A stretch of 64,000 bases of DNA from Stomorhina lunata (lineage: Eukaryota; Arthropoda; Insecta; Diptera; Rhiniidae), in the NCBI GenBank assembly GCA_933228675.1, contig OW121740.1, positions 52,282,174 to 52,346,173 of the forward strand, read 5' to 3'. Below are positions 3,926 through 63,686 of this stretch, in pieces. The first letter of the stretch is position 1; each line of letters starts with the position of its first letter. A program made the position numbers and the translations under genes. The notes under the pieces were generated by a model. It saw nothing but the letters and a program-made list of their open reading frames with translations. It ran no database searches and was not told the origin of the DNA.

Positions 3926-5229
3926 TCGGGTGTTTTTTATTTAGGTATAGAACTTTAAGTTGGCATCACTTTTTTAACTGGCGGCCATTTTGTCAGCTGT
4001 CAAGTGATTAATATTTAGTTTGGTTTGCCATTTCATCATGAACAGGTTGACAAAAAAACAACGCTTGCAAATCGTGCAAATTTATTTCGAAAATAATGGT
4101 TCAGTTCGCGAAGTTTACCGCAAGCTCCGTCCATTTTATGGTCGACATAATCGTCCATCAGAGCAATTAATTCGGTTAACCATGGATCGTTTTCGCACTA
4201 CGTTTACTCTATGTGATAATACGCATCCGCAGCGACGTCGAACAGTGCGCACCGAAGAAACAATTGCCGCTGTAGAGCAAAGTGTTGAAGAGGACCCGAA
4301 TGAATCGATTCGCCACCGTGCACAGCAATTGGAGCTTTGTCCATCAACTTTGTGGAAGATTTTGCGCAAAGATCTTGGCTTGCGACCTTATAAGATCCAG
4401 CTTGTGCAAGAATTAAAGCCGCGAGACCATGCAATGCGTCGTGATTTTGGTGTATGGGCCGAAAATGAGATTGATCTCGATGCTGATTTATATCGCAAAA
4501 TTTTGTTCAGTGATGAGGCTCATTTTTGGTTGAATGGCTACGTCAACAAGCAAAATTGCCGCATTTGGAGTGAAGAGAATCCACATGAGACCCTTGAGAC
4601 GCCATTACATCCACAAAAACTGACTGTTTGATGTGCTCTATGGGCTGGTGGAGTCATTGGGCCATACTTCTTCCGAAATAATGCTGGAGAGTCAGTTACC
4701 ATAAATGGAGACCGGTATAGAGCCATGATAACCGACTATTTTATTCCCCAATTGGATGGCATGAATGTGAATGAGTTGTGGTTCCAACAAGACGGCGCTA
4801 CATGCCACACAGCGCACGTCACAATTGATTTATTGAAGGAAACATTCGATGAGCGCATAATTTCGCGGAATGGACCTGTCAATTGGCCACCAAGATCGTG
4901 CAATTTGACACCACTGGATTATTTTCTTTGGGGATATGTGAAGTCGCTCGTCTACGCCAACAAACCAGAAACGTTAGGGGACTTGGAAGCCAACATTCGT
5001 GGCGTTATTGCCAACATACGGCCTCATATGCTCGAAAAAGTAGTTGAAAATTGGACCTGTAGAATTGGCTTTATTCGAGCCAGCCGCGGCGGCCACATGC
5101 CCGAAATCATATTTAAACATTAATGGCATAAAATTATCCTTCCAATAAAGCCAAATTGATGGACATTAAAACGATTTTCTTGTGTTTTATTTCAATTCGA
5201 AGTTCTATACCTCTGAAAAAAACACCCAT
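3926..5229 (+). mobile_element. Mariner-like element (DD41D type), copy 1
   Basis: This is a 1,304-bp element bounded by TA dinucleotides at 3924-3925 and 5230-5231, the expected TA target duplication. The terminal inverted repeats start TCGGGTGTTTTTTATTTAGG on the left and, reversed, ATGGGTGTTTTTT on the right. Both continue into GGTATAGAACTT. It carries one transposase frame with a single stop and an AATAAA at 5144-5149. A second copy at 45998-47256 is about 95% identical by eye. Confidence 0.93.
4038..5123 (+). pseudogene. Mariner-like transposase (DD41D), one nonsense codon
   Basis: It would encode a 361-residue IS630/Tc1/mariner transposase that excises and inserts the element at TA sites. 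The start chosen is ATG 4038 (MNRLTKKQRLQIV), where both copies begin an N-terminal helix-turn-helix; the ATG at 4020 adds six unsupported residues. Catalytic landmarks are visible: first Asp in FSDEAHFW, second in WFQQDGATCH, third in TPLDYFLWGY. There are 41 residues between the second and third Asp, the spacing of the rosa (DD41D) group rather than DD34D mariner. A TGA at 4629-4631 replaces the Trp codon of the VWCAL motif seen in copy 2. The frame is otherwise open to the stop at 5123, so this copy is inactive by one substitution. Confidence 0.92.
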
Positions 5230-5525
5230 TATAAATGTGATTCCCGGGGCGGGGTTATATGGGAGCTCTAACTAAATGCGAACCGATTTCGCCCATTTTC
5301 AATATACAAGATATCGAAAATACTTGTGTAAAATTTGTTCCCTCTAGCTCTTTTCGTTAAGACGCCATCGCGCTTTTATCTAACGGACATAAACCCCCTT
5401 TTCTTTTTGTATTTTTGTGTTTCTGTAAGTTTTTTTATATGGGAGCTATGGTCAAATGAGGACCGATTGTAACAAAATTTGGCACACTGACTGGAATTCA
5501 ACTAAAGACTCTATAATATAAAGTT

Positions 5526-8440
5526 GTTGTACTTCCATACATTGATTTATCGTATGGTCCATTTGAAAAGTCCCATAAAAAGAAGAGTTTACCGCTTTTA
5601 CTCTAATTCGGAAACAACTAATGGATACGATTATCCAATTTTTACTTTTGGCAAAAAAATTTTATATTACGAAAGTGCGAAATTGTAACGTAACTCCCCT
5701 AGAAATGTTCTATGTAACATTAAAACAAGCTGTGTTTTTAAAAATTGCATAAGGGGAACACGTGCCGCATCCGCCCACAAAGTGTTAAACTTTTTTATAT
5801 AAGAAAAAATAGGAGTATTTTCGGGTATGCCCAAATTTTAACCATTAAGAATTTAACTTTTTAAAAATATATTTGGAACAAAATTTGGTAATAAATTCTT
5901 AATATTCTGACTTTTGACATCGGTGAAGAAAGGGTTAAACTTTTCCAATTTTAAAAAAATAATGCCGTGTACATTTTATATAGTCTGGGGAAAGATATTC
6001 ACTATTACTTTTATTAATGTTGAACATTGGTGCCATTTAACAAACATATATTCAAATTATTACAAAAAATTCACATTTTCGAGGAATTTTATGATTTCAA
6101 ATCAAAGGCACGGCGAAAGGGTTTAAGATATCTACCCTGTTTTTTTATATTTTATTCTCCAATTTGTTTGTTTTATGATACTGGAAAGCAATTTTATTAT
6201 TTGTGATATTTGTTAAACAAAATTTTAAAAAAATTAAAAAATGATTTTTGAAACCGGCCTGAGAGAAAAGTATAATTTTCTAATATGAAAAAAACGGAGT
6301 AAATTCAGTTATATTTGAGCGAAAATCAACTATTTAGCGCTTACAGGTCATAGAATTGTAAATCATGTCTTACTTTGATTTTTTTTAGCTGCATATCCTT
6401 GGGCGTGTCGTCAAGGACACAAACTTTCGGGGAAACACTGCAATAACTCCAAAACTGCTTCATATAATTTTAATGCTGATAGCTTAATATAAAGCTACTG
6501 TAGTTTTATTTTATATTCCAGTAAACTATATCTAGTTCTAAGTGGTTAAATTTTGGACAAAACCGAAAATACTCCCATTTATTCCCATACAAAAAAGTTT
6601 AATGCTTTGTGGGCGGGTGCCGCATCTTCTTTTGCAATTTTGAAAAAAATAATTGCACAGCATGTTTTCCTGTTACATAGAACATTTTTAAGGTGAGTTA
6701 CGGTTTAATTTCGCACTTTCGTAATAAGAGTTACACCCTAATGTTTATAGTATAGAGCCTTTAATTCAAGCCAATAGGAATCTTTAGAGAAAAATTTTAT
6801 AATTACCATTTGGCAACAAAACAGTGAAAGGGTTAATTAAACTCTTGTTAAAAATAATTAAATATTTGAAAAATCTATAATTTAAACGAAAAACAAATTA
6901 GTTATTAATTTATGCATTCGGTGATTATAGTTGTTTTGTCTAAAGTAAGTAAATATTTGTATAATTAAATTATTGTAGAATTATTTAATTACTATTTGTT
7001 GTAGAGTTATTTAATAATGCAAAAAACATAACTTAACAATAAAGTAAAACATTTAAGTAAACGCTCATCTTATGAATGAATAATGAATATTAATTTTCTA
7101 ATACGATACAATAACACAGTACAACATTTTCCAATTTCAAAATCTTGAACTAGTTGAGATCACCAAAATCTGAAAGCTTAAGATGGCAGAAGAAAAAAAC
7201 CCAATATAGGTTGTGAATTATTAGCTAAGATGTTTCTTAAATCATTTTTAAAGTTTTCGACTAAGGAATGGATTTTTCTGATTCTTAATTCAATATCTCG
7301 TGAACTGTTCGAAATATTGATTTTCTTCACTTCAGCAAAATTTTTACCTCTTAATTAGATCTAAAAAAAATGCCTTGAGATAAAATCAAAAAGAAAAAAA
7401 CAACAACATCTTACTAATAATTCAAAACCGAGCTAGGTTTTTTCTTCTAACCTCATAAGCTCTCAGATTTTCGGGGTCACAATTGGTTCAATATTTTTTG
7501 CTGCACTGTGTAATACGAGTATCTATTGATTATTTTTAAAATTGTTATTTTATGCATATGGGGGATTAGAAATTGTATCTAAGAGATTGCATTATGAATT
7601 TAAAATAATTTAGATTTTTTTACATACGAAGGTTGCCTTTTATGCCTCGATATTGTGCAACTTAAGATAGGCTGAGTTGTTTATCACTTTTGTCTCTTAT
7701 CGACTTCTTGTAGTGAAATTACATGTGCAAATTATGTCATTAGGCAGTGTACAAAATTTTATTGATTTATTTTTAGGACACGAGCCCGCACAGCGGTCCC
7801 AAGGTATTTGAGCCCATTTGTATGGGGAAAAATAAGAGTTTTTGCAGATTTTGCTACATATCGTCCATTTTTTAATTATTTCAAAAAGAAGAGATGAGAG
7901 AATTTAAACCCGAACTTATTAAGTCATAAACATTTAAAATCCATAAAGCAGTTTTGGAGTTATTGCGATTTCTCCCCTAAAATTTACACCCTTGACGACA
8001 CTACTGAGAATGCACTACCAAAAAAAAACATTTTGAATAAAACTTAGCAAAGTAAGACATGATTTACTATTTCAAGACTTTTCAGTGCTCAATAGTTAAA
8101 TTTTGTTAAAATATAACCCCCCAATTTATAAACAAATTTTAAAATTATCAAATTCCTATAATTTGAAATGTGCATGGAAAATTTGAATTATAAGCTTGCT
8201 ATAGCTTAATTTCTTAATTATGAATTAGGGGGTAAAAACATTTATTTAGTTTTTTTCATATTTGAAAATGGGTAATTTTTCTCAGGTTTCAAACTCATTT
8301 TTTAATTTTTTGAAAATTTTGTTAAAGAAATGTTACAAATTTGAATTTCTCCTATCATTGTGTTAAAATGGATAAGTAAGACTATGAAACTCAAAAAATG
8401 GATATCTTAAAGTGTTTCGCCCTACCTTCTATTCAAATTC
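5526..8440. repeat. AT-rich repeat family R3, copies in opposite orientations
   Basis: Two nested inverted pairs are visible. Arm 5661-5860 (TTACGAAAGTGCGAAATT, then CCGCATCCGCCCACAAAG, then GGAGTATTTTCGG) is inverted at about 6535-6735. Arm about 6095-6480 (AAATCATGTCTTACTTTG, then GTGTCGTCAAGG, then ATAACTCCAAAACTGCTT) is inverted at about 7925-8425. A further copy lies at 12035-12300. The stretch 6850-7770 between the arms is AT-rich with nothing recognised. Open frames here are short and without domains. Confidence 0.65.
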
Positions 8441-23182: not shown

Positions 23183-24797
23183 CAGTGGCGTGCAGAAATG
23201 AGTACATAATTCATTTCTTTACTTTTCTGAATGATAAAATGAGCAATAACAAAGAAAATAAAATAAGTTTTTTTTTATTTATTCTGCGTTCCATTCTGAA
23301 TAAAACAACAAAAAATTCAAAACAAAAAGCAACAAATTCATAGAGAAAAAAAAACATAACAAAAATAACTCTCATGTACTCAATTTTGCACTTTTCAATA
23401 AAGTTGTTAATGGATCACTTTTTTAGTACTTGGTCCATAACCCTTTATTTTTTAGTACCATATTAATACGCTTTGGCATGCTTTCAACCAGTTCCTGTAT
23501 TATTTCTTTCGGTATATTTTGCCACTCTAGCTGTACTCGTGCCCACAGCTCTTCTAGGTTTGATGGAGCTGATTGGTATAATCCCAGCCGTCTTCCCACG
23601 ATTGACCATAAATTCTCAATCGGGTTGAGGTCGGGGCTTTGAGCTGGCCAATTCATCAGTTGAAAATTTTGCTCACTCAGACATTTTTTCACTATTTTCG
23701 CCGTATGCTTTGGATCACCATCCTGCTGAAACACGACTTCTTCTTCAGGATAGGCACTCTTATCAACGAATTCGGGAAAATGAGTCTGCAAAACGGTGAG
23801 GTATTCTTCCTTCTTCATTATACCTTCAATTCTGTGTAATGGCCCAACATGCCACCAAATGAAGCATCCCCAAACCATGATGTTCCCACCACCATGTTTC
23901 ACAGTTTGCTTGACTTGGTGACGTTGAATGGTATCACCAGGACGACGCCAGCAGAACTGCTTACCGTCCGATTGGAAACGATTAAATTTTGATTCATCTG
24001 ACCAAATCACTCGTTTCCAATCATTTACCGTCCAATTTTTATGGTCTCTTGCAAATTTCATTCGCGCCTTTTGGTTCTTTTCTGACAATGCTGGTTTATT
24101 TTTCTTAACTGCTGAAATATAGCCAATGTCGTGGAGCGCTCTTCGTGCTGTCCATTCACTTACGTGCTTATTTTTGGCAACAAAAGTATTTTTCGGTGTT
24201 ATGGTCTTGTTCTGCCTCATTTCTGCCATCATAAGACGTGCATCCGCGTAGGTTAACAGTTTGCGACGGCCTCTGGTTTGCTTTTTGGGAGCAGTATGTC
24301 GTCTTTTTTGAACGCGTATGACCACAGATTGACTAATATTTAGCTCCTTGGCTATTTCCCGAGATGACGCACCATTATTAGTGGGAAGACGGCTGGGATT
24401 ATACCAATCAGCTCCATCAAACCTAGAAGAGCTGTGGGCACGAGTACAGCTAGAGTGGCAAAATATACCGAAAGAAATAATACAGGAACTGGTTGAAAGC
24501 ATGCCAAAGCGTATTAATATGGTACTAAAAAATAAAGGGTTATGGACCAAGTACTAAAAAAGTGATCCATTAACAATTTTATTGAAAAGTGCAAAATTGA
24601 GTACATAAGAGTTATTTTTGTTATGGTTTTTTTTCTCTATGAATTTGTTGCTTTTTGTTTTGAATTTTTTGTTGTTTTATTCAGAATGGAACGCAGAATA
24701 AATAAAAAAGAATTTATTTTATTTTCTTTGTTATTGCTCATTTTATCATTCAGAAAAGTAAAGAAATTAATTATGTACTCATTTCTGCACGCCACTG
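23183..24797 (-). mobile_element. Tc1-like element with 417-bp acquired inverted repeats
   Basis: It is 1,615 bp with ends CAGTGGCGTGCAGAAATGAG at both sides and TA duplications at 23181-23182 and 24798-24799. CAGTG termini and TA target are Tc1-like. The left 417 bp (23183-23599) is repeated inverted at 24381-24797. That arm includes the last ~65 codons of the transposase, so the gene's own 5' end and promoter have been replaced by an inverted copy of its 3' end. It is inserted in unit 1 of the X array. Confidence 0.92.
23423..24550 (-). pseudogene. Tc1 transposase (DD34E), 5' end replaced
   Basis: The open frame reads 375 codons, but residues 1-57 are antisense of the gene's own 3' end and are not transposase. 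From residue 58 (NNGASSREIAKELNISQS) the normal paired-like helix-turn-helix begins, followed by a basic RGRRK motif near residue 93-97 and the catalytic core: D185 in WSDESKF, D277 in FQQDGDPKHTA, E312 in PDLNPIENLW. The spacing is 34 residues between the last two (DD34E). The core is intact with no stop or frameshift, and WTKY is the natural C-terminus. Without the native start (about 15-20 residues missing) and 5' untranslated region it probably cannot make normal protein, though the in-frame fusion leaves an ATG. Confidence 0.9.
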
Positions 24798-40087: not shown

Positions 40088-40153
40088 TTTAAGCTTTTAT
40101 TGCGAATGAGATTGCACATTGAAAAAAATTGATTAAGCGATGTCCATCTGTCG

Positions 40154-41512
40154 CACAGTGGTTTACGGACGCTTTTTTTTGGAAATAATTCTGTAACTTT
40201 TGAACGACTGGAGATATTTGAATGAAATTTGACATGGTGGTAGTCAAGGAGTATTTGAGTTGGTTTTTAAAAGCACTGGTCCATGAGGGGTCGGGAGAGT
40301 GATTGATGGACCTTCAAAGTTGGTCACCTCGGGTGTTCGATTTTTTTAAAAATTCGCCAAAAATCCATTTATGTATGGATTGAAAAGAAATTTTAAACTT
40401 AAGTTGTCCTTGAGAAGATCTACAAAAAATATGCTTAAATGTGTAGGTTATCTCCTTTGGATTTCGAGATATTTGGGTAAAAAGGAATTTTTAGGTTGAT
40501 TTTTTACCTCTTTTTTTAAGCTTTTTTGATCTGGTGGACGCATCTGAGGACCAAAAATTTTTTAAGAATATTCTTTAAATTTGTAATAAAATTCTGAATA
40601 ATTTTTGTGCAAGTTAGTTATAGAAATCTTCTTTTGTTTAAAAGTTAAAAATATTCAAAGTTGAAACTTACAAAAAATTTCGCTTTTTTTTTAGTTTTTC
40701 CCCAAAAGATAGCTATATTTTTTCACTAATAAAAAAATATTTTCTTAAGAAACATAAAAAGATTTTTAAAGTTTTTAAAAGAAAACATAATGAGAATGCG
40801 TATAAAACAAATTTCTTGCTAATTGGACTTTTGGTCCTCGCACATGTCCTCTCCAAAAAATGGCAATTTGTAAAAAAAAAAATTAGTTTAAACAAAAATT
40901 TCTCAAAAGGCAAAGCACCGATTTGAAAAAAATTATAATGTTCATATTTTCCAATATATCTGTTATTGATTAGAAAAGTTTTTTCTGAAACGCGCTGCAA
41001 ATAGAGACAGTGTTGCCATATTTGTAAAAAAACTCATTTTTTGAAACACCTTTTTCCCCAGTTGGGAATTGGGGAATTTTTAAGTTAAAATTGGGAATTT
41101 TTTTTAGTCTATTGCTTTTACATCTTATTGGTCTACATTACTACAAAATTTCATTGTAATATCTTTATCCATGTCATTTCCACAGAATATCAAAGATTAA
41201 AAATATTTTCCTTAAAAAAGCAGAAAAACAATTTTTTTTTGTTTTACGATACAAAGTGTAAAAAAAGTAACGCACTTAAAAAAAACTTTTACTTAGTGCT
41301 AATCTCCTAGTCTTTCCCGATCTAATGATACTAAACATGTATATAAAGCATTAATACCGAGTCTTAAAAAACTCTGAAAACTTTGGCCCCCGTAGCATTT
41401 TTACACTGTTTATTTAAATATAAGTGATGAATTTGTGCATATAAAATTAATAATCATACTCAAATATTTCACTATAAGATGACAATGATCCTTCGATAAC
41501 AAACAAATATTT
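40154..41512. repeat. Left terminal inverted repeat of the Transib-like element
   Basis: 1,359 bp, nearly identical to the inverse of 44319-45681; compared by eye, differences cluster at the inner boundary near 41475-41505. It starts CACAGTGGTTTACGGACGC. After the heptamer no convincing nonamer (ACAAAAACC-like) appears at a 12- or 23-bp spacing; a T8 run lies at 40173-40180. Mirrored 95- and 60-codon frames in the two arms are simply the same AT-rich DNA read twice, not genes. Confidence 0.92.
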
Positions 41513-41599
41513 TTTTATTTTTTTAAAGAAAATATCATGAGGATTTATGAAATATCAAAATGTAAATAATTTGTACTTATATTAAAAGGTGAAATACAT

Positions 41600-41605
41600 T
41601 TTATT
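41600..41605 (-). terminator. Poly(A) signal for the transposase gene
   Basis: AATAAA on the minus strand about 70 bases past the stop codon, in the unique interior just inside the left inverted repeat. Confidence 0.5.
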
Positions 41606-41673
41606 GAAGTATTTGTAGTTAAAGTTTAAACTTACAGTTTTTATTACATATTTATATAAAAGTAGTTATTTAC

Positions 41674-43710
41674 TTAATTTTTATTTTCAGTAAAATAATC
41701 AGTACAATCTATTATATCAAGAACCTCTTCCAGGTGTTCGTTTTCAGAAGTTTTTGTATAACTGCTCCACCATTTCTTTCTTATCGTTGATAGAGCAGGA
41801 TCAGAAGACAACAAGAGATAATTTATTAGATCCTGATTTTGCGATTTTCTTGAGCATTTTCTGGTATTAAATAGTTGGATATACTTGAAATCTGAATTCC
41901 GCGCTTCCTGGGCCTCTTCTGTCAGTTCACCAAGTGGGAGAAGATTTGATTCAATTATTTCACGACCATGTTGAAGGACTTTATGAACTGTTGGTGTAAT
42001 TTCTTTCCAGTGATACAAATGTCGTATACGAGTTAACGCGTTGAGGGCATAGCAATGAAATTTTTCAGCATTTATTTGATATTTGCTATTTATTGCCGAT
42101 AATATTACGTAACATTTACGAAGAACTTCCTCATCAATTCCAGTAATCTTTGAAGTTGTTTCATAATTTTCAAAGAATCGCCTGGCCGTATTACCATCGT
42201 TTGTACTGCCATATCCTACAAGTGGTTTGTCTATGTTTAGACCCGTCATAGTTTTGAATTCTTCCTGAATCCTTTTTTTTTCACTGGATCTCATTTCAAT
42301 CAGTTCCTTATTATTTCTCACGGATTTTAGCTGATTATCAGGTATATTCCTATATTTCAGATCATGTGCTATATGTAGCATAAATTCTAAAAATCGGATA
42401 CGTGCATGTAGGGGCGATATACCAAATTCCAGAACCTCTTGATTAATTGCAGTACTAGCTGATGCATCTTCTGAAGTTTGTAGAAATTCCGATTTCTTCT
42501 TTCCGCATAATGAGCATTTCCAAGTTGAATGGGTTTCCGTTATAGCGTTGCTTACTTTTCCATCTATCAATGTCAATTGAAGCTCAAAATTTACATTAAT
42601 CAAATATCCATGTATGTCTATGCAGACTGGACTCAAATTGTCTATTGAATATTTGATATCATCAACCCAATTTTTTGTGCTTGCTGCATTTTCTTTTAAA
42701 TATTCGAATCTGATCGGTCTGCAAAATGCCTTTGATCCTGGAGATGTGTTAACCCACACATATTCAGTACGCTCTTTTGATGTGGATGGTTCAGAACGAT
42801 TCTTTCTTAATCTTAGTGGTACTAGGGATGCCATAAAAACGCTTCTGTAGTCATTTGTGTTCTGATGAGATGTTGATTGTTTGTATTCCGGTAATCCAGA
42901 TAAACCGTCACATCCCCATTTACATATTAAAGTTAAGTCCTTGTTGTCAAGTTTCTTGGCTTCTTCTTCAGACAATGTAGTAGATATCAGCCTTGATGCC
43001 GTATTTTCCAATAATTTTGATAAATCCACAGATGCACTTTCGTCTCCTATCACGTTTGTTGGTATTAAGTTTTTTTTGGTTTTTAATAACGCATTATATC
43101 CTGGTAAAATTGAGTGTCCTTTGTCTCGTAATGCCTTACAGAGTTTAATATATTTATTTTTACTCAATTTCAACTCGAGCATAAGAGCAAGTGCTTCTTC
43201 CTCCGAAAATTCTGATTGAGAAGAAGGAGTTGGTATACTCTTAATAATTCGCTTAAGACGTTTAGGAGAAGCCTCTGGGAGAATATCTGCTATTTGTTTA
43301 GCTTCAGCTGGTTGATTATTTCGTTTGAGCACTTCCTTAAAGGAATCTTTGATTTCAGTATCCGAATGAGTAGAAAGAACTTCGGATAATCGCATCTTTT
43401 TAGATCTTTCTCCGAGATCATCATAGTTTTTTAGAGGGGCTCCAGCACCAGAAGTTTTAAGCTCAATTGAGTCCTTCAGCCAGTCTTTAAATTTAGATTC
43501 AAATCTTTTTAAACAGTAATTAACCGACTTAATTTTAAGTTCAAATAACTTTACAAATTTTACGACTTTGTCTTCCTCACTATTGAGAATCATGGAGTTA
43601 GTTTGACTTTTAGCATATCGCATGATTATTTTAATTTTTTCTGCTCTCGAACTGCTTGGTTGTTCAAAAAGAATATCGCACAACACTTTAAATTCCAATG
43701 TTATAGCCAT
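41674..43710 (-). CDS. Transib/RAG1-like transposase, 678 residues, intact
   Basis: DDE recombinase expected to bind the CACAGTG ends, cut them by a hairpin mechanism and insert with 5-bp staggers in the nucleus. Seen: D268 in KWGCDGLSG, aligning with RAG1 D600; D383 in LIDGKV, aligning with D708; and an acidic cluster E598-E602 in LTEEAQEARN, aligning with E962 in RAG1's SEGNESGN. A zinc site is formed by C399-x2-C402 (KCSLCG) and H576-x4-H581 (VHKVLQHGREII), matching RAG1 C727, C730, H937 and H942. GNTARRFF (506-513) matches GNFARK. The N-terminal ~200 residues are helical and charged, without a RING finger. The start ATG 43710 has a favourable context (ATCATGG). No intron, stop or frameshift; sole gene of the element. 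Confidence 0.93.
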   Translation of the reverse strand: MAITLEFKVLCDILFEQPSSSRAEKIKIIMRYAKSQTNSMILNSEEDKVVKFVKLFELKIKSVNYCLKRFESKFKDWLKDSIELKTSGAGAPLKNYDDLGERSKKMRLSEVLSTHSDTEIKDSFKEVLKRNNQPAEAKQIADILPEASPKRLKRIIKSIPTPSSQSEFSEEEALALMLELKLSKNKYIKLCKALRDKGHSILPGYNALLKTKKNLIPTNVIGDESASVDLSKLLENTASRLISTTLSEEEAKKLDNKDLTLICKWGCDGLSGLPEYKQSTSHQNTNDYRSVFMASLVPLRLRKNRSEPSTSKERTEYVWVNTSPGSKAFCRPIRFEYLKENAASTKNWVDDIKYSIDNLSPVCIDIHGYLINVNFELQLTLIDGKVSNAITETHSTWKCSLCGKKKSEFLQTSEDASASTAINQEVLEFGISPLHARIRFLEFMLHIAHDLKYRNIPDNQLKSVRNNKELIEMRSSEKKRIQEEFKTMTGLNIDKPLVGYGSTNDGNTARRFFENYETTSKITGIDEEVLRKCYVILSAINSKYQINAEKFHCYALNALTRIRHLYHWKEITPTVHKVLQHGREIIESNLLPLGELTEEAQEARNSDFKYIQLFNTRKCSRKSQNQDLINYLLLSSDPALSTIRKKWWSSYTKTSENEHLEEVLDIIDCTDYFTENKN

Positions 43711-43775
43711 GATGTTTTAACTGTTAATAGCAGTTACATTTAAAACTTTCTTTTTTATATTAAAAAAAAACATTT

Positions 43776-43783
43776 TTTATATA
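43776..43783 (-). promoter_or_regulatory. Possible TATA box of the transposase gene
   Basis: TATATAAA on the minus strand, 66-73 bases upstream of the ATG. In such AT-rich DNA this may be chance. Confidence 0.3.
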
Positions 43784-44318
43784 TACCTGTATCCAAAGAA
43801 TAATAAAGAAATCAATGAATTAATGTATTTTTTACCTCTAAAAATAGGTGCATATATAACTCAACCAATATGTGCGTCTCGTAAAACCTACCTGTATGGA
43901 GGTGAGTAACCATATCCTTTCTGACCATTATGAAAAACCCAAGTTGTAACAATTTTTACCTATTGCATTAACTTTCACATTAAAAAACATTTTATAACCT
44001 TAACATAATTTTGCAATTTTTTCAAATACACCAATTTTAAATACCGGAAAAATGCCTTTAAATCCTATTTAAAATAAATTGTCACACTGTTACTATAAAA
44101 GTACTCTTCTAATTAAACTTTTGCTACAAATTATGGATATATTACCTTTACACTGTTATCAAAATCGGTGCCTTACTCGTACTTACTTATTTAGAATCTT
44201 TTACTAAAATTTTATTTTTTAGCTTGGAACAAAAGGCAAAATCGAATAAAATTTTTTTAAGTCATTCTTATAATGTTTTCTTTAAAAAAATAAAAAACTA
44301 TTTATATCTTTTTGAAGA

Positions 44319-45681
44319 AAATATTTGTTTATTAGCGAAGGATCATTGTCATCTTAAAAATAGTGAAATATTTGAGTATGATAATTAACTTTATATGCAC
44401 AAATTCATCACTTATATTTAAATAAACAGTGTAAAAATGCTACGGGGGCCAAAGTTTTCAGAGTTTTTTAAGACTCGGTATTAATGCTTTATATACATGT
44501 TTAGTATCATTAGATCGGGAAAGACTAGGAGATTAGCACTAAGTAAAAGTTTTTTTTAAGTGCGTTACTTTTTTTACACTTTGTATCGTAAAACAAAAAA
44601 AAATTGTTTTTCTGCTTTTTTAAGGAAAATATTTTTAATCTTTGATATTCTGTGGAAATGACATGGATAAAGATATTACAATGAAATTTTGTAGTAATGT
44701 AGACCAATAAGATGTAAAAGCAATAGACTAAAAAAAATTCCCAATTTTAACTTAAAAATTCCCCAATTCCCAACTGGGGAAAAAGGTGTTTCAAAAAATG
44801 AGTTTTTTTACAAATATGGCAACACTGTCTCTATTTGCAGCGCGTTTCAGAAAAAACTTTTCTAATCAATAACAGATATATTGGAAAATATGAACATTAT
44901 AATTTTTTTCAAATCGGTGCTTTGCCTTTTGAGAAATTTTTGTTTAAACTAATTTTTTTTTTTACAAATTGCCATTTTTTGGAGAGGACATGTGCGAGGA
45001 CCAAAAGTCCAATTAGCAAGAAATTTGTTTTATACGCATTCTCATTATGTTTTCTTTTAAAAACTTTAAAAATCTTTTTATGTTTCTTAAGAAAATATTT
45101 TTTTATTAGTGAAAAAATATAGCTATCTTTTGGGGAAAAACTAAAAAAAAAGCGAAATTTTTTGTAAGTTTCAACTTTGAATATTTTTAACTTTTAAACA
45201 AAAGAAGATTTCTATAACTAACTTGCACAAAAATTATTCAGAATTTTATTACAAATTTAAAGAATATTCTTAAAAAATTTTTGGTCCTCAGATGCGTCCA
45301 CCAGATCAAAAAAGCTTAAAAAAAGAGGTAAAAAATCAACCTAAAAATTCCTTTTTACCCAAATATCTCGAAATCCAAAGGAGATAACCTACACATTTAA
45401 GCATATTTTTTGTAGATCTTCTCAAGGACAACTTAAGTTTAAAATTTCTTTTCAATCCATACATAAATGGATTTTTGGCGAATTTTTAAAAAAATCGAAC
45501 ACCCGAGGTGACCAACTTTGAAGGTCCATCAATCACTCTCCCGACCCCTCATGGACCAGTGCTTTTAAAAACCAACTCAAATACTCCTTGACTACCACCA
45601 TGTCAAATTTCATTCAAATATCTCCAGTCGTTCAAAAGTTACAGAATTATTTCCAAAAAAAAGCGTCCGTAAACCACTGTG
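44319..45681. repeat. Right terminal inverted repeat of the Transib-like element
   Basis: 1,363 bp, inverse of the left arm, ending GCGTCCGTAAACCACTGTG. Between the gene start and this repeat (43784-44318) lies AT-rich unique DNA without another open frame. Confidence 0.92.
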
Positions 45682-45689
45682 TGTCGGTC

Positions 45690-46000: not shown

Positions 46001-47256
46001 GGTGTTTTTTATTGAGGTATAGAACTTTAAGTTGGCATCACTTTTTTAACTGGCGGCCATTTTGTCAGCTGTCAAGTGATTAATATTTAGTTTGGTTTGC
46101 CATTTCATCATGAACAGGTTGACAAAAGAACAACGCTTGCAAATCGTGCAAATTTATTTCGAAAATAATGGTTCAGTTCGTCCATCAGAGCAATTAATTC
46201 GGTTAACCATGGATCGTTTTCGCACTATGTCTACTCTATGTGATAATACGCATCCGCAGCGACGTCGAACAGTGCGCACCGAAGAAACAATTGCCGCTGT
46301 AGAGCAAAGTTTTGAAGAGGACCCGAATGAATCGATTCGCCACCGTGCACAGCAATTGGAGCTTTGTCCATCAACTTTATGAAAGATTTTGCGCAAAGAT
46401 CTTGGCTTGCGACCTTACAAGATCCAGCTTGTGCAAGAATTAAAACGCCGAGACCATGCAATGCGTCGTGATTTTGGTGTATGGGCCGAAAATGAGATTG
46501 ATCTCGATGATGATTTTCATCGCAAAATTTTGTTGAGTGATGAGGCTCATTTTTGGTTGAATGGCTACGTCAACAAGCAAAATTGCCGCATTTGGAGTGA
46601 AGAGAATCCACATGAGACCCTTGAGACGCCATTACATCCACAAAAACTGACTGTTTGGTGTGCTCTATGTGCTGGTGGAGTCATTGGGCCATACTTCTTC
46701 CGAAATAATGCTGGAGAGTCAGTTACCATAAATGGAGACCGGTATAGAGCCATGATAACCGACTATTTTGTTCCCCAATTGGATAGCATGAATGTGGATG
46801 AGTTGTGGTTCCAACAAGACGGCGCTACATGCCACACAGTCCACATCATAATTGATTTATTGAAGGAAACATTCGATAAGCGCATAATTTCGCGGAATGG
46901 ACCTGTCAATTGGCCACCAAGATCGTGCGATTTGACACCACTGGATTATTTTCTTTGGGGATATGTGAAGTCGCTCGTCTACGCCAACAAACCAGAAACG
47001 TTAGGGGACTTGGAAGCCAACATTCGTGGCGTTATTGCCAACATACGGCCCCATATGCTCGAAAAAGTAGTTGAAAATTGGACCTGTAGAATTGGCTTTA
47101 TTCGAGCCAGACGCGGCGGCCACATGCCCGAAATCATATTTAAACATTAATGGCATAAAATTATCCTTCCAATAAAGCCAAACTGATGGACATTAAAACG
47201 ATTTTCTTGTGTTTTATTTCAATTCGAAGTTCTATACCTCTAAAAAAAACACCCAT
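45998..47256 (+). mobile_element. Mariner-like element (DD41D type), copy 2
   Basis: 1,259 bp between TA at 45996-45997 and TA at 47257-47258. The termini TCGGGTGTTTTTTATTGAGG and ATGGGTGTTTTTTTTAGAGG (reversed) continue to GGTATAGAACTT. It is 45 bp shorter than copy 1 because of one in-frame deletion in the transposase. AATAAA lies at 47171-47176. Confidence 0.93.
46110..47150 (+). pseudogene. Mariner-like transposase (DD41D), nonsense codon and 15-residue deletion
   Basis: Same family as 4038-5123. The start is ATG 46110 (MNRLTKEQRLQ). After NNGSVR, 15 codons present in copy 1 (EVYRKLRP and following) are deleted in frame, removing part of the N-terminal DNA-binding region. A TGA at 46380-46382 replaces the Trp of STLWKIL. 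The catalytic part from 46389 to the stop is open: LSDEAHFW, WFQQDGATCH, and SCDLTPLDYFLWGY with the 41-residue spacing; here the copy keeps the VWCAL Trp that copy 1 lost. The two copies were thus inactivated by different mutations. Confidence 0.92.
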
Positions 47257-52799: not shown

Positions 52800-54259
52800 A
52801 TTTAGTCCTTTAATTCCTGGTGGAACATAGGGCCTCAACAAATGTTTTCCATGTAAGTTTATCGGTAGTCATCACTTTCATCTCGTTCCATGATACACCG
52901 AACTCCCTCAGCTCGTTCTCAGTTTGGCGTCTCCACGGGTTTGCGGGTCTACCAGACCTCCTGGAACCTTGAGGATCATATTCAATAGCTTGACGATTTA
53001 TATCAGTGGCCGCTTTTCTTAATGTGTGCCCTTGCCAGCCATATTTTCTAGTGCGTATGCTTATTTGTAGCGGGTCCTGAGCGGTGCGCAACCATAGGTC
53101 TTCATTAGAGATTGTGATGAAAATTTTGAGTATACGTCTTAAACACCGATTAACAAAAGCTTGCAGACTGTTCATCTCACGACTCGAGATATTCCAAGTC
53201 TCACAGCCATATAGGAGCACGGCTTTAAAATTGTTGTTAAAAAAGTTTATTTTGGTGGTGGTCGAGATATTATGAGATCTCCAGAGTTTGTTTAGTATGC
53301 CAAAAGCTTGCTTTGCTCTGCATAACCAATTTTGGAAGTCTTCTCTGCTGCCTCCACTTTTTGAGATAATACTCCTTATGTAACAGAAGGTTTCAACTTC
53401 AGCAAGATAAAATTTGGCGTCATTTTGTGAGTTAATTCGCATCTGCTTAGTTTTCTTGATGTTAATCTGAAGATCAGGTAGAGCAGCACGGGAGGCAAAG
53501 TTTTAAAGTTTCGATTGCATGCTTGAGAATCGATGAGTGAACAGACACACGTCATCGGCGTAATCGATGTCATGTAGTCTATCGTGAAGACCCCACGAGA
53601 TACCATATTGCCCAGTCATCGGATTGCTAAACACAACATCAAGAACTATGTTAAATAGCAGTAGGGATAACACCTATCCCTGACGGACTCCAATCTTAAA
53701 ACTAATGGGCTTGCTCTGACAACCTTCATAGAGAATACAGCAAAACGCGTTATTTGCAAAGCTCTTTTATGAGTCGTATGATCTTCTCGGGGACTCCTTT
53801 GCATCTTAAAGCTTCCCAAATAGCCCTGTGCTCTAAAGTGTCAAATGCACGTTTAAAATCAATAGGTAAAGGGGAGATCGCCGTTCAACCGATTGTTTCA
53901 CAATAACCCTAAGGCTATTAATGTGATCAATACAGGATTTATTCGGACTAAAGCCTGCTTGTTCGCGTCTAAGCTGTGGTTCAACAATGGACTCTATGCG
54001 ACTGTGCAGAATATGGGCTATGACTTTATTGACCATATTAAGAAGAGTGATACCCCTCCAGTCGTGCAAATTCACTTTTTTGGGAATTTTTATAATTAGG
54101 CCTTCTCTGAGGTCGTCCGACCAGTATTTTATCAAAGGCTTAAAAAGCTTTGTGGATAGAGCTGTATTTTCTTTGCATAATTCAAGTGGAAATCCATCAG
54201 TACCTGCAGACTTTCCAGATTTTAGGCATTTAATTGCGGCATTTATTTCTTGAGATATA
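52800..54259 (-). pseudogene. Non-LTR retrotransposon family B, 5'-truncated RT gene
   Basis: On the minus strand, 54259-53833 encodes EINAAIKCLKSGKSAGTDGF, IPKKVNLHDWRGITLLN and QAGFSPNKSC (RT fingers). Motif A reads DFKRAFDTLEHRAIW near 53855-53805 and the catalytic YADD lies near 53560-53540 in a shifted frame. An intact C-terminal frame (53442-52810) has KAVLLYGCETWN, VNRCLRRILKI, SNEDLWLRTAQDP, GHTLRKAATDINR and GRPANPWRR, ending in CSTRN. It is broken by frameshifts and stops between 53830 and 53440. The 3' end is a TA-rich tail next to repeat X. The clade is not assigned; it resembles arthropod RTE/CR1/Jockey-type elements. Confidence 0.87.
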
Positions 54260-54508
54260 TCGCACTTGTTCAACAAGAGGGTATTAACTCAAAATTTTTA
54301 AATTTTCACTTCTTAGAAGAAATTGATGTGTAGTAGTCTTATCTACCCACAGTAAAAATCTGACATCATTTTCACTTTAATTTCGCCAAAAAAACTACAG
54401 TTTTACACCTCTTCTTTATATGAAAGTAGTAGTAAAATAAAATAGTTTTTTGACTCTACTGAAAATTTTAAAATTTTGAGTTAATACCCTCTTGTTGATA
54501 AAGTGCGA
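54260..54508. mobile_element. Palindromic MITE, 249 bp, TA-flanked
   Basis: TCGCACTT and CAACAAGAGGGTATTAACTC at the left are inverted at the right with about 47 bp of near-perfect pairing. TA occurs at 54258-54259 and 54509-54510. It lies exactly at the 5' truncation point of LINE B. Confidence 0.75.
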
Positions 54509-57020: not shown

Positions 57021-58324
57021 TCGGGTGATTAAATTTTAAGGGCCGATGTTGATTTTGAATAAAATACAAACTATTTAGGAAATTATTGTAATTTTATTTT
57101 ATTATGATATATTGGTATTACTCAATTATGTATGGAACACAATATCGGCCAAATGGGCGCCGCGACCACGGCGATACACCTCTATCCGATGGTCCACATT
57201 TTCGATGACCCTGAGGCATAATGGAGGTTCTATGCCGTTAATGTGCCGAATTATCTCATCCTTTAGCTCTTGAATTGTTGCTGGCTTATCGACGTACACT
57301 TTTTCTTTCAAATAACCCCAAAGAAAAAAGTCCAACGTTGTCAAATCACATGATTTTGGCGGCAATTGACATCGCTATTACGTGAGATAACACGGCCATT
57401 GAATTTGTTGCGGAAAAGAGCCATTGTTTCGTTAGCTGTGTGACAAGTGGCACTGTCCTGCTGAAACCACATATCGTCCACATCCATATCTTCCAATTCG
57501 GGCCACAAAAAGTTCGTAATCATCTCACGATAGCGAACACAATTCACAGTAATTGACTGACCGGCCTCATTTTGGAAAAAATAGGGCCCGATGATGCCGC
57601 CAGCCCATAAACCGCACCAAACAGTTACTCTTTGTGGGTGCATTGGTTTTTCGACAATCACTCTTGGATTCTCATTCGCCCAAATGCGGCAACTGTGTTT
57701 ATTGACGAATCCACTGAGGTGAAAATGTGCCTCATCACAGAAGATGATTTTCTTGGAAAATTGATCATCCACTGTGGCCATTTCTTGCCACCATTTTGCC
57801 CATTCACGACGTTTGGAATGGTCAAGAGGCTTTAGTTCTTGAGCCAATTGCACCTTGTAAGCGTGTAAATGCAAGTCTTTATGCATAATGTTCATCAACG
57901 ACGAGCGTGAGAGGTGCAATTGTTGGGCACGACGACGAGTTGAGGTGGACGGCTCTTCAGCCACACTATCGCGAACAGCAGCAATATTTTCTGCAGTACG
58001 AGATGTACGAGCATGCACTGGTGTTCTCACATCTTCTACAGACCTGGTTTGCTAGAACTTTTCCACGATTTTTGCGATTGTACGCACATTTAGACGATCA
58101 AATTGACCAAAAAAATCACGAAGTGCACGATATTCATTTTGATTTGAACGTCAATTTTCATAATTAGTCTGGATAACTTTAACACGCTGTTGGATTGTAT
58201 ATCTCTCCATGGTTCAAATTGAGTAAGTCTGAAATAGAGAAATGTCAAATAAAATTCGGAAAAAAAACTTGGCGCTTAGGTGTGGTTCACATTCAACATC
58301 GGCCCTTAAAATTTAACCACCCTT
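57021..58324 (-). mobile_element. Mariner-like element, second DD41D subfamily, copy 1
   Basis: 1,304 bp between TA at 57019-57020 and TA at 58325-58326. The ends TCGGGTGATTAAATTTTAAG and (reversed) AAGGGTGGTTAAATTTTAAG continue into GGGCCGATGTTGA. It has the same overall length as the element at 3926 but clearly different ends and protein. Confidence 0.92.
57126..58210 (-). pseudogene. Mariner-like transposase (DD41D), two stops and a 1-bp deletion
   Basis: Start ATG 58210 (MERYTIQQRVKVIQTNYEN). A TGA follows directly in place of the Gly codon kept at 63525, and a TAG replaces Gln in EQT (about 58042). The main frame 58030-57341 has the helix-turn-helix, CDEAHFHLSGF, VWCGLWAGGIIGPYFF and MWFQQDSATCHT. 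A one-base deletion near 57360 shifts into the last frame (SCDLTTLDFFLWGYLKEKVY to ADIVFHT, stop at 57126). Second and third Asp are 41 residues apart once the shift is allowed for. About 361 codons originally. Confidence 0.9.
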
Positions 58325-62471: not shown

Positions 62472-63686
62472 TAGGGTGGTTAAATTTCAAGGGCCGATGT
62501 TGATTTTGAATAAAACACAAACTATTTAGGAAATTATTGTAATTTTATTTTATTATGATATATTGGTCTAAATTTTCGATGACCCTGAGGCATAATGGAG
62601 GTTCTATGCCGTTAATGTGCCGAATTATCTCATCCATCAGCTCTTGAATTGGTGCTGGCTTATCGACGTACACTTTTTCTTTCAAATAACCGCAAAGAAT
62701 AAAGTCCAACGGTGTCAAATCACATGATCTTGGCTGCCAATTGACATCGCCACTACGTGAGATAATACGGCCATTGAATTTGTTGCGCAAAAGAGCCATT
62801 GTTTCATTAGCTGTGTGTCCTGCTGAAACCACATATCGTCCACATCCATATCTTCCAATTCGTGCCATAAAAAGTTCATTATCATCTCACGATAGCGAAC
62901 ACCATTCACAGTAACTGCCTGACCGGCCTCATTTTGAAAAAAAAAACGGCCCGACGATGCCGCCAGCCCATAAACCGCACCAAACAGTGATCCTTTGTGG
63001 GCGCATTGGTTTTTCGACAATCACTCTTGGATTATCATTTGCCCAAATGCGGCAGCTCTGTTTATTGACGAATCCACTGAGGTGAAAATGTGCCTCATCA
63101 CAGAAGATGATTTTCTTGGAAAATTGATCATCCACTGTTGCCATTTCTTGCCACCATTTTGCCCATTCACGACGTTTGGAATGGTCAAGAGGCTTTAGTT
63201 CTTGAGCCAATTGCACCTTGTAAGCGTGTAAATGCAAGTCTTTACGCATAATGTTCATCAACGACGAGCGTGAGATGTGCAATTGTTGGGCACGATGACG
63301 AGTTGAGGTGGACGGCTCTTCAGCCACACTATCGCGAACAGCAGCAATATTTTCTACAGTACGAGCTGTACGAGCATGCACTGGTGTTCTCACATCTTCT
63401 ACAGACCCGGTTTGCTCGAATTTTTCCACGATTTTTGCGATTGTACGCACATTTGGATGATCAAATTGACCAAAAAAATCACGAAGTTCACGATATGCAT
63501 TTTGATTTGAACGCCCATTTTCATAATAAGTCTGAATAACTTTAACACGCTGTTGGATTGTGTATCTCTAAATGGTTCAAATTGAGTAAGTCTGAAATAG
63601 AGAAGTGTCAAATAAAATTCGGAAAAAAACTTGGCGTTTAGGTGTGGTTCACATTTAACATCGGCCCTTACAATTTAACCACCCTT
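62472..63686 (-). mobile_element. Mariner-like element, second DD41D subfamily, copy 2
   Basis: 1,215 bp between TA at 62470-62471 and TA at 63687-63688. The ends GGGTGGTTAAATTTCAAGGG and (reversed) AAGGGTGGTTAAATTGTAAG match the element at 57021. Internal deletions shorten it by about 90 bp. Confidence 0.88.
62560..63570 (-). pseudogene. Mariner-like transposase (DD41D), multiply broken
   Basis: The start codon has become ATT (ACCATTTAGAG versus ACCATGGAGAG in the sister copy). The frame 63450-62929 keeps the N-terminal domain, CDEAHFHLSGF and VWCGLWAGGIVGPFFF, then a frameshift in an A-run near 62936. The frame to 62820 gives NEAGQAVTVNGVRYREM and MWFQQD; a small deletion removes SATCHT-equivalent codons and shifts again. 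The last frame reads ANETMALLRNKFNGR, SCDLTPLDFILCGY, and ends early because a deletion removed the codons for the final ~20 residues. Inactive. Confidence 0.88.

Follow-up and report, generated by a model that had tools for sequence, protein, structure and literature searches.

An apparently young Transib family in Stomorhina lunata with kilobase terminal arms that appear to exchange sequence

The window (the whole 64,000-nt stretch of Stomorhina lunata DNA analysed here) contains an intact Transib element that appears to be young. Our preferred reading, to which we give a probability of about 0.8, is that its family arose in a burst from one progenitor and that its long terminal arms exchange sequence, which would keep them near-identical and would sometimes leave the gene inverted relative to the outer ends. 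This reading is built on features observed directly in the assembly: the anatomy, the target-site duplications, the number of copies, their intact frames, the star-like pattern of the interior and the arm mosaics. The two end haplotypes found on either side of the gene, the arm mosaics and the unvarying interior go beyond the initial annotation of this DNA.

Anatomy of the element and placement of its transposase

The element boundaries were exact, at window positions 40154-45681 (5528 bp), with TGTCG directly outside either end. The arms at 40154-41475 and 44360-45681 were 100% complementary over 1322 nt, and BLAST extended the match to 1363/1367 nt (99% identity, element positions 1-1363 against 4162-5528). 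The CACAGTG ends, 5-bp TGTCG duplication and 678-codon gene of the initial annotation were all confirmed, and its arm length of 1.36 kb is correct once the 40 nt at the inner edge, which have diverged slightly, are counted in. The features are as follows.

40149..40153, no strand: left target-site duplication TGTCG, identical to 45682-45686
40154..40160, + strand: left terminal heptamer CACAGTG; the 25-bp end recurs across the genome
40154..41516, + strand: arm A, the left long terminal inverted repeat on the gene's 3' side, ~1363 nt, G-type outer haplotype
40193..40432, + strand: outer block of markers in the arm (positions 40, 87, 103, 188 and 279), which separates G-type from T-type ends in the copy alignment
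41381..41446, + strand: inner pair of markers in the arm (positions 1228 and 1293); 1293 tracks gene orientation nearly always, 1228 less strictly
41674..43710, - strand: predicted Transib transposase gene, 678 codons from ATG to stop, intronless and unbroken (ORF and phmmer match to Hztransib 6pqn)
within 41674..43710, - strand: putative catalytic residues D268 (42907-42909), D383 (42562-42564) and E602 (41905-41907)
43711..44314, - strand: unique sequence between arm B and the ATG, upstream of the gene; presumed promoter and 5' untranslated region
44315..45681, - strand: arm B, the right long terminal inverted repeat on the gene's 5' side, ~1367 nt, G-type outer haplotype, matched to arm A as above
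45675..45681, - strand: right terminal heptamer CACTGTG, at the tip
45682..45686, no strand: right target-site duplication TGTCG, a direct repeat of the left flank

CACAGTG/CACTGTG occurred within the element at the two tips only. The description of these ends as V(D)J-type held for the heptamer but not for the full signal of heptamer and nonamer with 12/23 spacers. The two ends of the window copy had the same sequence over 1322 nt and so lack 12/23 asymmetry, and inspection by eye gave no convincing nonamer match beside the heptamer. Elsewhere in the window, ORFs at 4008-5123, 23423-24553, 46383-47150, 57341-58051 and 62929-63567, and at 52810-53502 and 53833-54288, appeared mariner-like (transposase) or reverse-transcriptase-like when their translations were read by eye.

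The predicted protein was compared with solved structures using phmmer and matched Hztransib (6pqn) with an E value of 1.3e-88 over residues 162-657, while the RAG1L chain 6b40 matched at 1.4e-4. A profile made from 14 proteins matched Hztransib at 2.3e-172, RAG1L at 1.4e-16 and RAG1 chains at 3.8e-11 to 2.4e-6. The family was settled by this PDB sequence search because Pfam models gave only sub-cut-off matches to the protein, none reaching the cut-off; a precomputed PF26100 label was carried by 29 of its 66 relatives. D268, D383 and E602 were invariant in the 14-protein alignment and align, through a 17-residue offset counted by hand, with Hztransib D126, D225 and E436, as numbered in an excerpt of PMC6941560. 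The named relatives among the 66 came from Stomoxys, Lucilia and Eurosta flies, one ant and one cockroach, and the nearest, P0001, was 61% identical along the whole length. Searching for a sister lineage with P0001 listed at least 66 matches, each 63% identical to P0001, which fits the burst of this family (66 of 2002 candidates scored).

GC-rich 5-bp targets are preferred by the Transib superfamily, and a GC-rich, CRNYG-like consensus was found over 38 target sites of the family. The element has a single DDE transposase homologous to Hztransib and the RAG1 core, and 5-bp target-site duplications flanked 38 of 40 two-ended copies. Both tips carry CACAGTG, in keeping with Transib-type termini that begin with CAC and resemble the RSS heptamer (excerpts of PMC7204232 and PMC4411706). 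By its sequence the protein is a predicted Transib transposase and the element is not of the RAG1/RAG2 (RAGL) type, which places it, as first proposed, inside the RAG1/Transib clade. CACAGTG termini and 5-bp duplications would equally suit a RAG-like transposon (RAG1L-RAG2L, ProtoRAG-type) with V(D)J-style ends. We regard such an identity as highly improbable, as the protein is far nearer to Hztransib than to RAG1L or RAG1, the ends of the window copy are identical and hence without 12/23 asymmetry, and no RAG2-like gene was found beside the RAG1-like gene: a scan for unspliced ATG ORFs of 80 aa or more detected no second ORF inside the element.

Copies, target sites and an apparently recent burst

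The 25-bp end, allowing up to 2 mismatches, gave 2370 matches in the 728-Mb Stomorhina lunata genome (1175 forward and 1195 reverse), while its reversed-sequence control gave 0/0 in the same genome at the same threshold. A 73-bp subterminal stretch with at most 1 mismatch matched 573 G-type and 431 T-type ends, 1004 genome-wide. These young-type matches suggest about 500 copies from one young burst, and the remaining ends would belong to older, deleted or more diverged copies. We sampled 48 loci, of which 40, the window copy among them, were two-ended and 34 were full-length at 5.2-5.7 kb. The 5-bp flanks were identical in all two-ended copies except L013 and L030. Together the 2370 end matches against none in the control and the exact flanks of 38/40 copies indicate that the element is not a chance arrangement, and the proposed boundaries and the expectation of many near-identical copies were both borne out. 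The copies L030 and L031 (C1:32263932-32274985) lie end to end at full length with CGATG alone between them, the right copy having a CGATG duplication and the left copy mismatched flanks.

Over the 38 sites the target consensus was C-R-N-Y-G, with C at position 1 in 30, R at 2 in 35, Y at 4 in 33 and G at 5 in 25. The targets showed no per-site hairpin preference (87/304 complementary positions against 89.1 expected, n=8, p 0.64). Two copies of a single repeat carry insertions at the same CATAG, L024 in one and L029 in the other; the site reads CCACCATAGGTGG, a short palindrome.

When the flanks were joined, 9 of 38 aligned across the junction with paralogous sampled sequence at 71-99% identity, three of these weakly (71-77%). 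The best such match fell in the window.

4043..4384, + strand: paralogous empty site of copy L035, in a mariner-like ORF, with a single CGACG (99.1%, joined-flank match)

Empty sites, which the initial annotation proposed to look for, were thus found in paralogous form for some other copies but not for the window copy itself. Its own joined flanks recovered no empty site among the best 40 of 1754 candidates; beyond its own two flanks, the 38 other matches listed all lay in left-flank bases 1-87.

The 678-aa frame was kept in 26 of the 34 full-length copies and was broken or altered in 8. In the chromosome 1 (C1) sample, L009-L047, it was kept in 18 of 26; the other 8 copies had been picked by similarity. 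An alignment of the interior of the 34 copies (2737 columns) had 65 singleton columns and no shared substitution column. Shared length variants were limited to two homopolymer runs (in 4/34 and 5/34 copies), a single ambiguous column one base long (2/34) and cut edges. As no interior substitution is common to two copies, the family appears to be a star burst from a single progenitor. In the first 1300 arm columns we counted 63 private substitutions confined to one arm, 5 that the two arms of a single copy shared, 4 that occurred in two copies and 7 that were widespread. Private substitutions were equally frequent in the two parts, at 7.1e-4 per site in the arms and 7.0e-4 in the interior, indicating little divergence since the burst. 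The star-like interior and the intact frames agree with the recent activity first proposed, and by these measures the family appears to have burst very recently.

Two end haplotypes and probable exchange between the arms

The widespread arm substitutions made up the outer block, with G-type (GGTTT) and T-type (TACCC) haplotypes, and the inner marker pair; the window copy was typed GG. The inner marker 1293 tracked the gene, with A on arm A in 33/34 copies and G on arm B in 31/34. Marker 1228 was C on arm A in 31/34, but arm B had G in 22 copies and C in the other 12. In contrast, the outer block did not track the gene: among 26 C1 copies the T-type end was on the 3' side in 15 and on the 5' side in 7, with 2 GG and 2 TT. 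These 26 copies were exact-end pairs from C1 up to 49.6 Mb, with one 13.4-kb pair left out for length, and their outer type was scored on at least 2/3 markers. L001-L008 had been picked for their resemblance to the window copy, and 5/8 were GG; the ratios use the 26 full-length copies of L009-L047. Typing was extended to the 47 ORF places on C1 and C2 among the 66 listed by the P0001 search, with the 19 on other contigs left out. The C1 places beyond the sampled copies gave 3 TG, 2 GT, 4 GG, 1 TT, 1 half-typed and 1 untyped; those on C2 had T on arm A in 5 and on arm B in 3, with 18 untyped including the sampled copy L004. These further copies agree with side switching of the outer ends.

The arms themselves were mosaic. 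At alignment columns 190/281 the 29 T-type arms of the 34 copies were CC in 19, CT in 6 and TT in 4, and the 39 G-type arms were TT in 33, TC in 4 and CT in 2. These mixed states imply several breakpoints, as expected from exchanges inside the arm. L009, L027 and L035 each carried one private substitution in both of their arms, and L022 carried two; private deletions were likewise shared by the two arms of L034 (3 bp) and of L038 (30 bp). These changes are probably footprints of conversion inside one element. Homopolymer changes of one base that the two arms share in L001, L021 and L023 also point to conversion but are weaker evidence. Homogenisation was incomplete, as the 63 single-arm private substitutions and the large single-arm arm deletions of L009, L027 and L046 indicate. 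The four substitutions common to two copies, each time in a single arm, may reflect exchange between copies or recurrent mutation. Heterotypic copies may share descent, and independent exchanges are not exactly countable.

Most copies were heterotypic (22/26 sampled; 43/61 exact C1 pairs), which is what one or two heterotypic masters predict. Two sister masters whose arm haplotypes were opposite, multiplying in parallel and lacking recurrent arm exchange, could in principle account for this. We consider such a history unlikely, because no interior substitution divides the two orientations (0 informative columns), and it is already strained by the intermediate arm mosaics and by private changes shared by both arms of one copy.

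A single assembly underlies the arm mosaics, and some of the exchanges could be mimicked by errors of polishing or phasing where arms are identical. If all of the mosaics were artefacts of assembling or polishing 1.36-kb repeats that are nearly identical, the element would be an ordinary young long-TIR Transib. The inferred ~500 near-identical copies are the hardest case for polishing, but we judge this explanation quite unlikely: private-substitution rates in arms and interior were equal, the widespread substitutions occurred in the arms alone and for the most part fit two haplotypes, the exact duplications indicate that copies were resolved at distinct sites, and the 30-bp deletion that L038 carries in both arms would be hard to produce by polishing. 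Exchange between the arms within a family that burst from one progenitor is the reading that we prefer.

The exact-end pairs on C1 numbered 61, of which 43 were heterotypic, 15 GG and 3 TT, against a random expectation of 48% heterotypic (p 5e-4). They were drawn from 173 listed C1 ends, 51 of them unpaired; the G-type ends were the first 100 places and the final 2 Mb may be absent. Since the pairs overlap the sequenced set, 51/173 ends are unpaired and the members are kin, the set probably shows heterotypic ends that were inherited rather than selected. The excess of GG over TT is a possible sign of conversion bias or of a disadvantage of TT.

Proposed cycle, known systems and older copies

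In the cycle that we propose, the transposase, presumably active, would bind the tips, nick at CAC and make a hairpin on the flank, a chemistry carried over by analogy from Hztransib. The element would be excised with its arms and inserted at CRNYG-like targets through cuts staggered by 5 bp. In or around this cycle the 1.36-kb arms would recombine by crossover and gene conversion, with repair of the excision gap as an example occasion, and this would keep the arms nearly identical and at times turn the gene around with respect to the outer ends. Homogenisation of the arms and inversion of the gene, including the timing and repair pathway of the exchange, are proposed from comparing the copies. 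More tentatively, and as a reading that we think rather unlikely, long-arm Transibs in general could be self-homogenising and invertible. Arm recombination coupled to excision and gap repair would then hold 1.3-kb arms identical, flip the gene against the ends and usually leave the two outermost ends unlike, with asymmetric end pairs favoured at transposition. The 43/61 heterotypic pairs and the 15 GG against 3 TT hint at such a preference, which might be a counterpart of the 12/23 rule.

The V(D)J recombinase has a RAG1 core that derives from a Transib-type transposase (excerpt of PMC4411706), and intact, very young Transib families are useful for this reason. Here hundreds of near-identical natural copies with kilobase arms and two naturally varying end types are available, making it testable how long inverted repeats stay identical and whether a RAG1-type transposase heeds end asymmetry.

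Hztransib of Helicoverpa zea is described in an excerpt of PMC1852546 as having 'long TIRs', a length of 3518 bp and a deduced protein of 489 aa. It shares with the Stomorhina element a Transib transposase (structure 6pqn), an aligned catalytic triad, 5-bp duplications and the long TIRs, but is shorter than the 5528 bp and 678 aa found here, its structure aligns only from residue 162 of the Stomorhina protein, and the excerpt gives no TIR length. The Drosophila transib1-4 elements belong to the same superfamily but have TIRs of 40-45 bp at total lengths of 2167-2883 bp (Table 1 of PMC10299278, FlyBase-derived, in excerpt) in contrast to the kilobase arms. The spread of transib1 (3030 bp) in D. 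melanogaster between 2013 and 2016, reported in an excerpt of PMC12230796, is a parallel for the recent burst. A search of open-licence PMC papers found no Transib with kilobase arms and no paper pairing 'Transib' with 'long terminal inverted repeats'. The initial annotation had called kilobase repeats unusual and possibly diagnostic of a new subfamily; the first part stands against the Drosophila elements, but long TIRs alone do not define a subfamily because Hztransib was already described with them, so far as the excerpt goes.

ProtoRAG/RAGL elements share CAC-type ends, 5-bp duplications and a RAG1-related enzyme (excerpt of PMC7204232), but carry RAG1L and RAG2L, whereas the Stomorhina element has a single gene that is Transib-like by sequence. 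A structural parallel lies in another superfamily: Galileo, a Drosophila element of the P-element superfamily with an unrelated transposase, has recombining TIRs of up to ~1.25 kb, with chimeric or recombinant forms, deletion derivatives and two-TIR copies (excerpt of PMC3573991). According to that excerpt, Galileo TIR chimeras lack matching 7-bp duplications and its longest-TIR copies lack a transposase frame, whereas nearly all Stomorhina mosaic copies have exact 5-bp duplications and the long arms flank intact genes.

Older copies were also present. L018 and L019 had 1298-nt arms with ~90% identity to the window arms, and their own arms were 96% and 98% identical; kilobase arms therefore predate the burst. 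L019 had a perfect CAGCC duplication, and its centre had no match to the 66 transposase relatives. The outer markers were GACCC in both arms of L018 and L019, by which T-type ends would be ancestral-like at 4/5 sites, with the polarity uncertain because other older arms were mixed (L042 GGCCA, L033 GGTCC, L041 GGCCC). Derivatives included L048, which has an internal deletion, the near-palindromic L041 and L032, which has a 1.7-kb insertion.

A second, different Transib-type terminus (CACAGTGGTATTAACTCTGC...) was seen in the older arms, at ~1497-2850 of L019 and in part in L018, L013 and L039. It had ~317-bp inverted repeats and a further CACAGTG ~120 bp inwards, and in L019 its immediate 5-bp flanks were inverted, not direct. 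A protein search for other Transib ORFs in the genome listed at least 66 matches with 29-52% identity to an ant relative (65 of 2053 candidates scored). Examples lie at C1:57502709-57504703, C1:146259892-146261859 and C1:64677438-64705821, and several were multi-copy and unbroken. Four of these other Transib ORFs stand in a row on C1, ~8.9 kb apart.
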